Positions 7,091-16,932 of a stretch of 64,000 bases of DNA are shown piece after piece (the first letter of the stretch is position 1; each line of letters begins with the position of its first letter). The translations under genes were made by a program, and so were the position numbers. Source of the stretch: Leptospiraceae bacterium (GTDB lineage Bacteria; Spirochaetota; Leptospiria; Leptospirales; Leptonemataceae); contig BPKM01000003.1 of NCBI GenBank assembly GCA_026005135.1, forward strand, positions 434,001 through 498,000, given 5' to 3'. The notes under the pieces were generated by a model. The model worked only from the letters and a program-made list of their open reading frames with translations. It ran no database searches and was not told the DNA's origin.

Positions 7091-7589
7091 GGTTATGGGA
7101 GTAGTAGAAGATATTGATATACAATATGCAAAAAAGGTAATTGAAAGAAGTGAAAAATTATTAAAAGCAACAGTAGACGAAGTAATGACTAAAAATGTAA
7201 TTACAGTTGATTATGATGATCCAGCAGCAAAAGCTACAAGAATTATTTTAGAAAATGGATTTCTAAGCTTACTTGTATTAAAAGAAGGAAAGCCATTTAA
7301 TATGATTAGTGTTTTTGAATTATTACGAATAGGTTATGAAGAAACACTTAGTCTGGATAAAGATTATTTAACAACAAAGATAGGAGAATTGATCAAAAAT
7401 AAAAAATTTTATTATTTACCTTCTGGAACACTACTAAAAGATGCAGTAAATTTTATGATGGATAGAAAATTACGAACGATTCCTATTATAACGGATAATA
7501 TCGTGAATGGAATTTTATCTATTATTGATATGGTCCAATGGTATAGATTGAACCATGAGGAGGTATTATTTGGAAAAAAACCCCGTTGA
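7083..7589 (+). CDS. CBS-domain pair protein
   Basis: Two CBS repeats (VDEVMTKNVITVDYDDPAAKATRIILENG; LKDAVNFMMDRKLRTIPIITDNIVNGILSIIDMVQW); true start possibly ATG 7095. Confidence 0.85.
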   Translation: MGRVMGVVEDIDIQYAKKVIERSEKLLKATVDEVMTKNVITVDYDDPAAKATRIILENGFLSLLVLKEGKPFNMISVFELLRIGYEETLSLDKDYLTTKIGELIKNKKFYYLPSGTLLKDAVNFMMDRKLRTIPIITDNIVNGILSIIDMVQWYRLNHEEVLFGKKPR

Positions 7590-7908
7590 ACCTTATCCTT
7601 TTTTTAATTTTGGAGAAGAATGGATTAAAAAAGAAAAGGAAAAGGCTAAAAAATTAAAAAAAACTTCCTGGTGGCGGAGAAAAAAAGCAAAAGGAATCTG
7701 TTATTATTGTAAAAGAAAATTTAAACCTAATGAACTTACGATGGATCATGTAATACCATTATCACGGGGGGGAATGTCTACAAAAGAAAATTTAGTACCT
7801 TGTTGCAAAGAATGTAATTCTAAAAAAAGATACTTATTACCAGTAGAATGGGAAGAATATATGAATAAAATTCGTTCTTATAATATAAATCAAGAAGATA
7901 AAGAATAA
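7570..7908 (+). CDS. HNH endonuclease
   Basis: CYYCKRKF...LTMDHVIPLSRGGMSTKENLVPCCKECNSKK; AGGAGG at 7558-7563 ahead of TTG 7570. Confidence 0.88.
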   Translation: MEKNPVEPYPFFNFGEEWIKKEKEKAKKLKKTSWWRRKKAKGICYYCKRKFKPNELTMDHVIPLSRGGMSTKENLVPCCKECNSKKRYLLPVEWEEYMNKIRSYNINQEDKE

Positions 7909-8513: not shown

Positions 8514-10202
8514 ATGCCAGAGGGTTTAAAAAATATATTTAATAAATTTATTGAGGTTTGGAATAAATTAGATACCACAAAAAAAATAACAATAGGGATT
8601 ATTTTAGCAATTGTAATAATAGCATTTATCTTTATTGCCAATTATTCTAAAAAACCAGCAATGGAGATATTGTATGAAAATTTAAATGCATCTGATTATG
8701 CTGCTATAACTAAATTCTTAGATGCAAACGGATATGAATGGAAAGGGGTAGGAACTTCTACCATTTATGTTAATGGCTTAAAACGACAGGAAATTATAAC
8801 AAAATTAGCACAGGAAAATTTAATACCAGCAGGAGTAGAAGGTTGGGAAATATTTAATATGTCTCGTTGGGACGAAACTACATTTGATAAAAACGTAAAG
8901 TTACATCGAGCAATCAAAGGTTCTTTAGAACAAATGCTTATGACACTTGATTTTGTAAAAACAGCAAAAGTGGAATTAGCAATACCCCAAAGAAATAATT
9001 TTTTAACGGATACGGAGCCAGTAAAAGCTTCTGTTGTAATAACGTTAAAGCCAGGTATTGAAACAATTTCTCGAAAGCAAGTAATGGGGATTAAAAATTT
9101 AATTTATCGAGCAGTACCAAACTTAAAAAGAGAGAATATAACTATAACGGATAATTATGGAAAAGAATTTGTAGAACCAGACGAAATTGATGAAGAACAA
9201 AGAAGATTAGAATTAGTAGAAAAGAAAAAAGAAATTGAAGAAAGAGAAAGAAGAAAATGGTTAAATGAAATTCAAAAAAGTTTACATGAATTTTATACGG
9301 CAGATAGAATTTCAATTATTCGTGTAGCATTAACAATGAACTGGGATGAAGTTAAAGAAAAACAACATCTTGTAGAACCAGTAGAAGCACAGCCAGAAAA
9401 TCCAGATACCCCTTATCCAGATAGAAAACTAATGCCAAATGGAACTTTGATTATTTCTGAAAATGCAAGAAATGAACGATTTAGAGGAAATGGTTTTACA
9501 CCGGGTGGTCCAACAGGGACAGAACAACAATTACCGCCAGGATATAGAGATTTAGATTATCAAAGAGCAGAATATGGTAATAATGATGTTATTAGAAATT
9601 ATGATTATAATAGAATAGAAAAAGAAATTACAAGACAACCATGGGAAGAACGTGCACGTTCTATTGCCGTTGCAGTAGATGGAAAATGGATAAAGAAGGG
9701 TATTAAAGAAGATGGTTCGGGTTATATTAGAGAATATATTCCACCTACAAAAGAAGAACTTAAAACAATAGAAAAACTACTAAAAGCATCTATATTATAT
9801 AAATCATCTCGGGGAGACCAAATTGTTGTAGAACATTTACAAAAAGATAGAACTGCTCAATTTGAAAAAGAAGATGAAGAATTAAGACAGAAATTAATGA
9901 TGCAAAGATTATTAATTGTTTCTGCTATATCTATACTTGCATTTTTATTACTGTATCTATTATATAGAGCAATTAAAAATGAAATAGCCAGAAGACGCCG
10001 ATTAAGGGAAGAAGAATTAGCAGCACAACAGCAGTTGATGAGGGAAGCAGCATTGCGTGTTGCAGATGAAGGAGCGGCTGAAGTAGAACTATCTATTGAT
10101 GAAAAAGCAAGAAGAGAATTATTAGAAAATGCAATCAATCTGGCAAGAGAAAAACCAGATGAAGTAGCAAAATTATTAAGAACATGGATGAACGAGGAGT
10201 AA
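8514..10202 (+). CDS. fliF: Flagellar M-ring protein FliF
   Basis: Two TM segments, LYENLNASDYAAITKFLDANGYEW, VELAIPQRNNFL, C-terminal FliG-binding-like tail; SD AAAAGGAATAAATT. Confidence 0.95.
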   Translation: MPEGLKNIFNKFIEVWNKLDTTKKITIGIILAIVIIAFIFIANYSKKPAMEILYENLNASDYAAITKFLDANGYEWKGVGTSTIYVNGLKRQEIITKLAQENLIPAGVEGWEIFNMSRWDETTFDKNVKLHRAIKGSLEQMLMTLDFVKTAKVELAIPQRNNFLTDTEPVKASVVITLKPGIETISRKQVMGIKNLIYRAVPNLKRENITITDNYGKEFVEPDEIDEEQRRLELVEKKKEIEERERRKWLNEIQKSLHEFYTADRISIIRVALTMNWDEVKEKQHLVEPVEAQPENPDTPYPDRKLMPNGTLIISENARNERFRGNGFTPGGPTGTEQQLPPGYRDLDYQRAEYGNNDVIRNYDYNRIEKEITRQPWEERARSIAVAVDGKWIKKGIKEDGSGYIREYIPPTKEELKTIEKLLKASILYKSSRGDQIVVEHLQKDRTAQFEKEDEELRQKLMMQRLLIVSAISILAFLLLYLLYRAIKNEIARRRRLREEELAAQQQLMREAALRVADEGAAEVELSIDEKARRELLENAINLAREKPDEVAKLLRTWMNEE

Positions 10203-10205
10203 TCA

Positions 10206-11525
10206 TTATCGGCCTTCGTAACCTATTACATCCATAAATGCACTAACAGAAAAAACAGCTTTTCCTCTACCTGGTTCACCATATCCTGGTGGAACAGGTA
10301 ATTTATATTTTTCAAAAGTTCTTTTCCATACAGTTAATAATTCTAAAAAATATCTTAATGGTGGTTTTTGTTGGTTTCCAAGTGTTGTATATGGTTCTGG
10401 ACACCAGGTAGTAAAGCGTGGTACAACACCATGGCTCATAAAAAAATCTAAGCCTTCAGCTGTTGATTGAATTGCCTCTTCGATTGTTTTAAAACCATAA
10501 GGTTTTGCAAGTTCAACACCACCAACAAAGTTAGGTATAACATTTGAGGGTCCAAAAATATCCACAGATTCAATGATTCTTCTTATCCAGTTTTCTCTAC
10601 CGATAAATCGTTCTTTCCCAGGACATAATAAAGAAAATAATCTTTTATCCCATACTTCGTAATTAGGATGATAGATTTTAATTCCAGCCTCTTTAAAGCG
10701 TACTAAATCTTCTTTTTCCCATGCCTGAACTACCATTTTACCTATCCATCTATTTGGAAAATGACTTTCTATTGCTTCTACATATTGAAAATAAAAATCC
10801 TGTTCTTTTTTATTTTGTAAATGAGTAACGACAGAACCACCTGTAATTGTATAAGCTTTAGCTACATTATCTTCTTTATCGATCCAGGAAAGTACTTCTA
10901 TAATATCTTGTATATTTTTAATACCAGTATAAGGCCTTTTTAAGATTTTTTGTTGTCGCCAGTTATGATTTATATCACAAAATGCACATTCTTCTTCTTT
11001 ACCAAAATATTGACAATTACGAAATACTGTTAAATAAATTAAATATCCCCATTCTATTACTGGTGCTATTTCTCCAGGTTGTTTACCTGAAGAAGTTTTA
11101 TATTTATACCATGTTGGTACAGGAGGAAATTCAACATAACCCAATATTGTATTATCAAATTTTAATACAACGTTATTATCCTGATCTAAGGTTATAAGGT
11201 ATGGAGAATTTGGATCAATCCGAACAGATATAACAGTTGGCAGTAGATTAAAATATCCATTTGAAATTTTTATTTCTTCTGGTGCTTTAAAACGATATTC
11301 TTCTGGTTGTTCTGTTAGAGGAACATGATCAAAAGTAAATATAAAATAATCTTTAGCTTTGTAGGTATGATTTTGTAAGGCTTTTACATCAAATTTTAAA
11401 CCTAATCGTAAAATATCCTGCTTAATAATGGCTTCTAAAGGGATTTCTTTATAGATTTCAATGAATTTTTCTAAAATATTAATATTAGTAATTTGATTAT
11501 CAATTTGTTCGATTGTATGGGACAT
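10206..11525 (-). CDS. Radical SAM family protein
   Basis: NCQYFGKEEECAFCDINHNW cysteine cluster, AYTITGGSVVTHL, GGVELAKPYGF; resembles radical SAM enzymes. Confidence 0.75.
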   Translation of the reverse strand: MSHTIEQIDNQITNINILEKFIEIYKEIPLEAIIKQDILRLGLKFDVKALQNHTYKAKDYFIFTFDHVPLTEQPEEYRFKAPEEIKISNGYFNLLPTVISVRIDPNSPYLITLDQDNNVVLKFDNTILGYVEFPPVPTWYKYKTSSGKQPGEIAPVIEWGYLIYLTVFRNCQYFGKEEECAFCDINHNWRQQKILKRPYTGIKNIQDIIEVLSWIDKEDNVAKAYTITGGSVVTHLQNKKEQDFYFQYVEAIESHFPNRWIGKMVVQAWEKEDLVRFKEAGIKIYHPNYEVWDKRLFSLLCPGKERFIGRENWIRRIIESVDIFGPSNVIPNFVGGVELAKPYGFKTIEEAIQSTAEGLDFFMSHGVVPRFTTWCPEPYTTLGNQQKPPLRYFLELLTVWKRTFEKYKLPVPPGYGEPGRGKAVFSVSAFMDVIGYEGR

Positions 11526-12882: not shown

Positions 12883-13330
12883 AATTAATTTTATTTATAT
12901 TATTTATATTTTCTAATTCTTTTAATAAAAAATAAAATCAAATGGCTAAATAAAAATATAAATTTTATAACTATTAAATTAAAATATTCAAAATAAAGTT
13001 GAAATAATTTATTGGCTTCTGTTTCAATAGCTACCATTTCAAAGCAAATTTTTTTATGAATCTTCTATATTCCATTCCAACTTTCGTTTATCTATTATGT
13101 GAATTTTTTAATTATCTTATTAAAATAAAATTGACAAATATATCAATATAAATACAAAGAAAATCATAATTTTATTAAGAAAATGGGAATAGAAAAAATT
13201 TATAGTTAGTTTATTAGATTTATCTTAAAATAGATAATGAAAAATAACAAGCTTTTGAAAAAAAAGTTAGCCTTATAAGGTAGCCTTATTAAACATTGTA
13301 AAGAAAAAACGTGTCAGTTCTCTAAACAAC

Positions 13331-13790
13331 AATCCTAAAAAAAGGCGGGAAAAAACCGTCGCTGGGCTTTCATAGCGACAATAGGAGGGAGGGTGGGATA
13401 ACTTAAAAACCGTCGGCGGGTTTACTCGCCGACAACCCTAAAAAAATAGGGTTGGGATTGGATGTGTACAAATAGCCGTTGGTTTTACACAACGGCAATC
13501 CTAAAAAAGATGGGTGGGCAAAAGAAACCGTCGCTGGGCTCTGCACAGCGACAACCCTAGGAGGGACGGGTGGGCAAAAGAAACCGTCGCGGGCTCTGCA
13601 CTGCCGACAACCCTAAAAAAAAAGGGTGGACTGGGTGGGTAAAAATAGCTCGCTTGGCTCTGCACAGCGGCAATCCTAAAAAAAGACGGGTGGGCAAAAG
13701 AAACCGTCGCTGGGCTCTGCACAGCGACAACAGGAGGGAGGGGTGGGATAACTTAAAAACCGTCGGCGGGTTTACTCGCCGACAACCATA
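13331..13790. repeat. GC-rich hairpin repeat array, eight units, upstream of acyl-CoA synthetase gene
   Basis: Eight palindromic cores (GTCGCTG..CAGCGAC, GTCGGCG..CGCCGAC, GCCGTTG..CAACGGC etc.) with conserved linkers CCTAAAAAAAGACGGGTGGGCAAAAGAAACC, period about 54-63 nt. Confidence 0.93.
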
Positions 13791-13801
13791 AAGGAAAGAA
13801 T

Positions 13802-15442
13802 ATGAAATCAACAATGATGAATTATCCATTAGTATTAGGTTCCATTTTAAAAAGGGCTTATAATGTACATCCAGAAAAAGAAGTTGTTTCGAAAATGAAT
13901 GATGAATCAATCCATAGATATACTTATGGAGAATATTTTAAAAGAACATTACAATTAATGTCTGCTTTAAAACGTAATGGTGTAAATTCATTTGATAGAA
14001 TAGCAACTTTTGCATTGAATCATTATAGACACTTAGAATTGTATTTTGCTATTCCGTGTATTCAAGGAATTCTTCATACATTAAATATTCGATTATTTCC
14101 AGAACAGTTAGAATTTATAGTAAATCATGCAGAAGATAAATTTATATTTATTGATAAGTCTCTAACAAAAGCTATTGCTCCATTAGTAAATCAATTTAAA
14201 TCAGTAGAAAAATTTATTATTATTGATGATAAAGAAAATATTGAACCAGCTAACTTACCTAATGCAATAGATTATGAAGAATTTTTAGCTATGGGAGATT
14301 ACAAGGAAGGCTGGGATTTACTCCATTCTTTAAAGATAGACGAAAATGATCCAGCAGGAATGTGTTATACATCTGGAACTACAGGAAATCCAAAAGGGGT
14401 TTTATATAGTCATAGAACAATTTTTTTACATTCTATGGGGATCTGTTTAGCAGATGCTTTATGTTTAAGCGAAAACGAAACTGTATTACCTGTTGTACCT
14501 ATGTTTCATGCTAATGCATGGGGAATACCTTTTGCTTGTGTAATGACTGGAGCAAAATTAGTTTTTCCTGGTAAACATCTATTAGGTCATCCATTAGCTG
14601 AATTATTAGAACAAGAAAAAGTAACGATAGCAGCAGGTGTCCCTACTGTCTGGAATGTTTTATATCAACAATTAAAAAAGAAACAATATAATTTAAAATT
14701 ACATACCATGGTTGTTGGAGGTTCTGCAGCACCACGTTCTATGATAGAAAATTATGAAAAAGAATTTGGTATTAATATTTTACATGCATGGGGAATGACA
14801 GAAACTTCCCCTTTAGGTACAGTTTCTCGTTTAAGAAGTTATATGAAAGATTGGGATGAAGAAAAACAATATACAATGCGTGTTAAGCAGGGATTTGCTG
14901 TACCGGGGATAGAAATACGAGCAATAGATGAGAATGGTAATGATATACCACGAGATGGAAAAAGTGTAGGAGAATTAATTGTTCGTGGGGCATGGGTTAC
15001 AGGAAGCTATTATAATATGGACATAAAAGAATCCTTTACAGAAGATGGATGGTTTCGAACAGGTGATGTAGTGACAATTGATGAATATAACTTTATGCAG
15101 ATTACAGATAGAAAAAAAGATTTAATAAAAACAAGAGGAGAATGGATATCCAGTGTAGAGATGGAAAATATTGTAATGGGATTACCTTTTGTAATGGAAG
15201 CAGCAGTTGTTGGAAGACCTGATAAACTAAAAGAAGAAGCACCTGTTATATTTTGTGTTCCTAAGGAAGGAGAATCCATAGATAAAAAAGCTATTATTGA
15301 AGAATTAAAAAAACATTTTGCTCATTGGCAAATACCTCATATAGATGATATTCATATAATTGATAGTATACCAAAAACGAGTGTAGGTAAATTTGATAAA
15401 AAAGTGTTAAGAAACAAAATTAAAGAAATATATAAAGAATAG
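13802..15442 (+). CDS. Long-chain fatty-acyl-CoA synthetase / AMP-dependent ligase
   Basis: [59 protein letters not shown]. Confidence 0.95.
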
Positions 15443-16453: not shown

Positions 16454-16874
16454 AAGCTCAAAAAAATAAAAAAAAATTTTAAGACAAGAAGATTTTAAAA
16501 TGAAATATCTAATATAAATTTTATTAATAAAGCTATAAATGATATACTATAAAAAAAATAGTAAAAAAAGAAACGATAAAATAATAATTTAGCTTTGTTG
16601 CTTAAAAGTAAATTATTTGCAATTTATAAAAATATTTATAAATATTGTTAAACAATTTTTCGTGATATGAGAAAAAGTATTGAATTTTCAAATATATGTT
16701 AGTAATATTTTAAAAAAATTTTTTGTTTTTATAAAAAATATGCTTTTAAAAAGGGAGTTATGCAACAAAACACCTTTCTTGTTTCCCTTTTCAGAATGAG
16801 GTTTTACTAAATTCATTATAAATATATATTTTTAATATTTAAAAACAAGTTAATAATGTCATATTTTTTTAGAA

Positions 16875-16932
16875 TTGCTGCCGTGCTTTGCCCGTCGACG
16901 TTTTTTTTCTCGCCCAACCTAACCCTAAAATT
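16875..16932 (-). repeat. Solitary degenerate copy of the 13.3-13.8 kb hairpin repeat (opposite strand)
   Basis: Reverse complement TTTTAGGGTTAGGTTGGGCGAGAAAAAAAACGTCGACGGGCAAAGCACGGCAGCAA aligns to TAGGGTTGGG..AAAAACCGTCGGCGGGTTTACTCGCCGACAA. Confidence 0.6.

Follow-up and report, generated by a model that had tools for sequence, protein, structure and literature searches.

Bacterial 5' leaders that combine a hairpin with a G-quadruplex sequence, on the sense strand and upstream of the Shine-Dalgarno site, have been described by Lee et al. 2024 (PMC11087576). These leaders are synthetic and contain one or two structures; the distance from the quadruplex to the Shine-Dalgarno site is 46 bp. 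Both in vitro and in E. coli, translation rose with an RNA G-quadruplex in the leader and rose again when a hairpin was added, reaching as much as 12-fold; the authors propose that a physical barrier biases the movement of ribosomes toward the AUG (PMC11087576). TAACTGA heptamer arrays are forward tandem repeats just before the start codons of many unrelated genes, with a copy number that varies between strains, and their 7-nt repeats mostly overlap the position where a Shine-Dalgarno site would be expected but is absent (MacGregor 2015, PMC4679880). The GGGNATC repeats of Xanthomonas and Nostoc are quadruplex-capable intergenic tandem repeats near ORFs, but upstream of ORFs they prefer the antisense strand and they have no hairpin module (Rehm et al. 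2015, PMC4692102). REP/BIME elements, with their RAYT transposase, are dispersed palindromic units with compensated stems. Ribosome standby sites, as outlined in PMC3936740, comprise a structured leader whose single-stranded spacers lie 5' of the Shine-Dalgarno site; that outline treats them leader by leader and not as a family of dispersed repeats.

Here we describe arrays of hairpins and G-tracts in a Leptospiraceae bacterium. The window, by which we mean the whole analysed stretch of 64,000 nucleotides, contains one of them; the genome it belongs to (G000) is a 3.4 Mb assembly of 18 contigs. Unlike the leaders of Lee et al., the arrays are natural, contain as many as eight or nine modules in tandem and place a hairpin nearest the ATG. 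Like the TAACTGA arrays they are tandem repeats in sense orientation, close to the start codons of unrelated genes, but their units are 50–66 nt of hairpin and G-tract with the Shine-Dalgarno site intact, and neither a TAACTGA-type sequence nor the loss of that site is seen. Dispersed intergenic palindromes with compensated stems are shared with REP/BIME elements, and the sequence-only reading had listed such an element with a trans-acting transposase among its possibilities. This now appears unlikely: a search for Y1_Tnp (PF01797) gave 0 matches in G000 (94% complete) while control genomes were positive, the copies stand strictly in sense before start codons, and they form tandem arrays with G-tracts.

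The array before the acyl-CoA synthetase gene

Eight palindromic hairpins had been claimed upstream of an acyl-CoA synthetase gene. All eight are present between 13358 and 13783, six clean and two (5 and 6) imperfect, and a covariance model of the unit (R1) finds each of them, with E from 1e-11 to 1e-5. The features are as follows.

13297..13342 (+), decayed ninth unit at the array's 5' edge (R1 search by cmsearch: 19.8 bits, E 0.075)
13358..13379 (+), hairpin 1, GTCGCTG/TAGCGAC (enclosing unit 13344-13391, E 3e-8)
13384..13397 (+), G-tract linker GGAGGGAGGGTGGG, quadruplex-capable by sequence
13412..13433 (+), hairpin 2, GTCGGCG/CGCCGAC (covariance-model match)
13475..13496 (+), hairpin 3, GCCGTTG/CAACGGC (covariance-model match)
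13530..13552 (+), hairpin 4, GTCGCTG/CAGCGAC (covariance-model match)
13560..13574 (+), G-tract linker GGAGGGACGGGTGGG (sequence)
13586..13608 (+), hairpin 5, imperfect (covariance model, 40.5 bits)
13624..13639 (+), G-tract linker GGGTGGACTGGGTGGG (sequence)
13648..13671 (+), hairpin 6, imperfect (covariance model, 35.0 bits)
13706..13728 (+), hairpin 7, GTCGCTG/CAGCGAC (covariance-model match)
13733..13747 (+), G-tract linker GGAGGGAGGGGTGGG (sequence)
13762..13783 (+), hairpin 8, GTCGGCG/CGCCGAC, 18 nt from the ATG (covariance-model match)
13790..13795 (+), Shine-Dalgarno-like AAAGGA (sequence; equivalent place in other arrays)
13802..15442 (+), AMP-binding acyl-CoA synthetase gene, 546 aa (Pfam PF00501, E 1e-72; PF13193)
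16865..16913 (-), solitary decayed unit with no recognised gene directly behind it (cmsearch, 25.1 bits, E 0.0037)

The array has a G+C content of about 0.52, against 0.26 for the window, and its hairpins are spaced 54, 63, 55, 56, 62, 58 and 56 nt apart. The recurrence of modules 1 and 2 as 7 and 8 is confirmed, at an offset of 349–350 nt and with identities of 98% and 91%, as is the short distance to the gene, with 18 nt between the last base of the array (13783) and the ATG (13802). The linkers were said to be conserved. As a class they are, each being G-rich and then A-rich, with the G-tracts on the sense strand; they come in several versions, however, and not as one sequence. The solitary decayed unit lies on the minus strand, about 400 nt upstream of nadA.

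A number of other identities were considered and set aside. In an Rfam search the window yields a tRNA only, the best match to the array having an E of 0.99, which leaves no known leader or riboswitch. Phage or plasmid cargo was rejected since the window array has no match in either collection, and two exact unit patterns found no match among viral contigs. A repeat peptide is rejected as a general explanation: although the spacing is a multiple of 3 in some arrays, and an ORF traverses one of them (L047), this is not so in the window array and others. Intrinsic terminators on the sense strand do not fit either, the hairpins being followed by AAC and A-runs, not T-runs. A promoter within the array is argued against by the operon-internal copies described below, and no sense promoter match lies inside it. 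A TTGACA at 13131 was dropped as a promoter conserved with the related genome G003, the AT-rich alignment being ambiguous there.

Copies of the unit in the genome

Dispersed copies, which the sequence-only reading had foreseen, are abundant. BLAST of the window array against its own genome returned many more, and R1 gave 77 matches in G000 at E up to 0.005, these E-values being rough. With weak neighbours included there are about 80 units in 17 hairpin arrays, so the window array is far from a chance occurrence. When all 17 arrays were read, each was found in sense orientation and immediately before a Shine-Dalgarno site with its start codon, both assigned from sequence; the position in front of the gene, as expected of a 5' leader, is upheld and is the same address throughout. 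At the 3' junction the pattern is hairpin-AAC-TCTAAAGGAG-N-ATG, so that the last unit merges into the start region. The last paired base is 18–20 nt from the ATG in 15 of the 16 arrays where this could be measured; in L044 the distance is 25 nt, and L042 has lost its last hairpin.

The genes behind the arrays are unrelated and share no common pathway. They include recA (L032), rplJ (L040), pyruvate phosphate dikinase (PPDK, L033), acetyl-CoA synthetase (acs, L035), a ccoP-like gene (L036), a norB/ccoN-like oxidase (L034), hsp20 (L039), a CoA-transferase (L041), TRAP dctP (L042), a TetR regulator (L038), two lipoproteins (L043 and L044) and others, named partly by library search and otherwise by sequence recognition. 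The copies at norB, hsp20 and rplJ are internal to operons. Near-identical composite modules occur at separate loci (L033 and L034; L031a and L035), and runs of identical units in L031b and L037. In the latter (9987-10350, minus strand), six near-identical units precede only an 18-codon ORF (MKKLSCATLNITVPKRHS) with a contig end nearby; the short ORF is possibly a broken gene or an assembly fault.

The compensated changes in the stems are borne out across the family. Over all model hits, 96.1% of stem cells are standard pairs and six of the seven stem pairs vary on both sides; the stem covariation score is 0.494, against 0.193 when shuffled and at most 0.081 in slid controls, in a count that still depends on the model. 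An earlier count, which used rows selected for palindromy and thus carried a selection bias, agreed. There are 37 distinct stems and few common loops, with GGTTTACT in 33, GGCTTTGCA in 29 and GGCTCTGCA in 14 of 105 units. Does such covariation imply selection on a folded molecule, as had been argued? The covariation is there, but by itself it is no proof, because template switching can create hairpins and also keeps their arms matched (PMC8794818). On the sense strand G-U pairs outnumber A-C mismatches by 23 to 9 on distinct units and by 16 to 9 on distinct stems, the latter a weak excess, which leans slightly toward a role as sense RNA over one as DNA.

Quadruplex potential in the linkers is well above that of shuffled sequence. 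By a sequence criterion only, 47 of the 63 linkers could form a quadruplex of at least two layers, compared with a mean of 5.2 and a maximum of 13 in shuffles, and three layers are possible in 8 compared with 0; about a quarter of the linkers are without four G-runs, and most others permit two layers only. The minimum-energy structure of the window array, folded in ViennaRNA with quadruplexes allowed, contains a single quadruplex at 37 C, and at 60 C it has none; this whole-array fold pairs identical hairpins that are far apart and is not evidence on local quadruplexes. A five-base Shine-Dalgarno-like word is present in 37 linkers against 19 in shuffles, which makes a different ribosome-based role possible. 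A scan of G000 with the G-tract sequence GGNGGGNGGG found sense leaders at 22 of 25 loci, the other three being antisense to ORFs. The additional loci are mostly single G-tracts directly before the Shine-Dalgarno site, with the hairpin absent or very weak; such leaders precede clpP and genes for a cytochrome c peroxidase-like protein, a lipase-like protein, an Fe-S protein and bactofilin.

Occupied and empty sites in related genomes

In three other species of the genus, the covariance model found units in G003 only, at five places, and it found none in 57 further relatives or in the order's other genomes. G022, from the same order, has another dispersed repeat, GGGTGGGAACTCCATTCTCGAAGAATCTGCTGGGGAGAATTATG, in more than 20 copies (contigs C1 and C2). 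G001 and G002 have isolated G-tract leaders only, one of them at ccoP in G001; the GGNGGGNGGG matches of G002 with intact context fall within genes. In G003, 9 of 13 GGNGGGNGGG loci are sense leaders (binomial p 4e-10, assuming 3000 genes and 100-nt leaders), and tandem G-tracts without hairpins occur at L158, L159 and L164 (ahcY-like). The element is common to the leaders of G000 and G003 at recA, ccoP, PPDK, clpP, both L031 genes and the L043 lipoprotein gene. Its form differs: in G003 both the recA and the ccoP leader combine a G-tract with a hairpin, which is diverged at recA and at ccoP has a 9-bp stem of unrelated sequence (GGCAATGTG/CACATTGCC). The CoA-transferase leader of G003 has an unrelated hairpin and no G-tract. 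Taken together, the leaders look like a series that runs from a single G-tract, through a G-tract with a hairpin, to tandem arrays.

Most sites occupied by arrays in G000 are empty in G003. At norB and hsp20 the G003 sequence passes cleanly from the end of the upstream gene to the same Shine-Dalgarno site within about 20 nt, where G000 has more than 300 nt including the array. For acs, the Shine-Dalgarno site and spacer TAAAGGAGAGAGAGTATGG are identical with and without the array. The empty sites keep the native Shine-Dalgarno site, and the array has therefore been placed 5' of it. Such presence and absence at orthologous sites would be expected of a mobile element; no clear target-site duplication was found at the junctions read. 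The reverse case is an array between the etfB-like and etfA genes of G003, where G000 has none. Two G003 contigs (C9 and C22) begin within an array (L048 and L049), apparently the two sides of this one, where the repeats interrupt the assembly. Since the etf array coincides with two contig ends, the array counts in these assemblies are lower bounds.

The only named record found to contain the unit is contig BPII01000034.1, whose MAG bears the label Candidatus Sericytochromatia KatS3mg068. With 97.4% identity to the L031 region of G000, this contig has both arrays; one consists of 9 units where G000 has 8, and the last unit of the other is different, so that copy number does vary between strains, a comparison the sequence-only reading had proposed. 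The Sericytochromatia label or the binning of this contig (L046, L047) may be wrong. Behind L031a stands an acidic protein gene whose frame is broken by a frameshift in G000 (L031 3185-3241) and open in BPII01000034.1 (L047, about 7437-7750).

Possible roles of the arrays

Our preferred reading, to which we give a probability of roughly 0.42, is that the arrays are leader-RNA modules on mRNA that most likely affect translation initiation. The mRNA of the acyl-CoA synthetase gene would carry the window array in its leader. The repeating module (G-rich tract, A-rich spacer, hairpin of 7–9 bp, AAC, YCTAA) would sit between an upstream feature, either a promoter or the gene before, and the Shine-Dalgarno site native to the gene, and would have been amplified in tandem and copied to other genes. 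The footprint of an initiating 30S subunit extends roughly 20 nt to the 5' side of the AUG. With a spacing of 18–20 nt, the last hairpin would therefore lie at the upstream edge of the space for that subunit, and the hairpins and G-tracts stacked behind it may act as a bulky barrier or standby platform, raising or tuning initiation on the cistron. We infer that the arrays are transcribed as leader and that their G-tracts form quadruplexes; the direction of the effect and the way it comes about are inferred as well. It is the spacing, together with the ingredients shared with the leaders of Lee et al. (a hairpin and G4-capable sequence, in sense, 5' of the Shine-Dalgarno site), that leads us to favour an effect on initiation. 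Several observations count against it. The limited quadruplex potential of part of the linkers and of the folded window array is one, and the weak G-U excess on distinct stems and the Shine-Dalgarno-like words in the linkers are others; in addition, the G003 ortholog of the window gene, 88% identical, has no array, and a quadruplex near the start codon has been reported to lower expression, a result known to us as cited in PMC11087576. More tentatively, and with some doubt, we suggest a dispersible expression-tuning module, in which units of hairpin and RNA G-quadruplex are copied between genes to a place exactly 5' of the native Shine-Dalgarno site, the number of units serves as a translation dial, and the arrays have grown from single G-tract leaders of the kind still present in the sister species.

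Alternatively, the arrays may do nothing for their genes. Neutral or selfish palindromes might spread by recombination between leaders, grow in tandem and be tolerated only between the upstream feature and the Shine-Dalgarno site, with arms matched by the template switching that makes and maintains hairpins (PMC8794818). The near-identical composite modules at different loci (L033/L034; L031a/L035), the identical runs in L031b and L037, the 8 and 9 units in strains 97.4% identical, the decayed lone unit at 16865-16913 and the majority of sites that are empty in G003 would all be in line with this. Tolerated junk, however, is not expected to keep a nearly fixed spacing of 18–20 nt and strict sense orientation, nor does it account for unrelated hairpins at the equivalent place before ccoP and the CoA-transferase gene in G003, or for leaders common across species (recA, PPDK, clpP, ccoP, the two L031 genes and one lipoprotein gene); we regard it as somewhat unlikely, though the most serious of the alternatives. 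Less probable again is a trans-acting RNA-binding regulator, recruited or titrated by the conserved loops of tandem hairpins (GGYTYTGCA, GGTTTACT) and co-regulating the array genes. The loops are indeed far more conserved than the stems, and multivalent binding sites typically come in tandem copies, as these do, but genes as different as recA, rplJ, PPDK, acs, ccoP, hsp20 and those for lipoproteins have no common pathway, there are G-tract-only leaders without any hairpin, and no candidate protein was found.

Two further roles fit the position of the arrays poorly. Hairpins at the 5' end stabilise some bacterial mRNAs, and the stable GC-rich hairpins here, within otherwise AT-rich mRNA, might likewise block decay that depends on the 5' end; this is improbable, given that several copies are operon-internal and not at a 5' end (norB, hsp20, rplJ) and that stability needs no fixed spacing from the ATG. 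Least credible, to the point of being very improbable, are transcription terminators on the antisense strand that would shield the leader from antisense transcription. T-runs do follow some hairpins on the minus strand, giving 2 terminator-like sites against 0.8 in shuffles, but only 2 of the 8 hairpins pass, other bases mostly separate stem and T-run, and neither the spacing from the Shine-Dalgarno site nor the G-tracts would be explained.

If the arrays prove to be neutral, they would still offer a clean case of palindromes matched by mutation alone and confined to one spot before the start codon. If instead they tune translation, they would represent, in nature and across a whole genome, an effect hitherto shown in engineered leaders, with comparisons built in: genes that have an array in one sister species and lack it in another, and unit numbers that differ between near-identical strains. 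They would then show the leaders of unrelated genes gaining one RNA module by copying.
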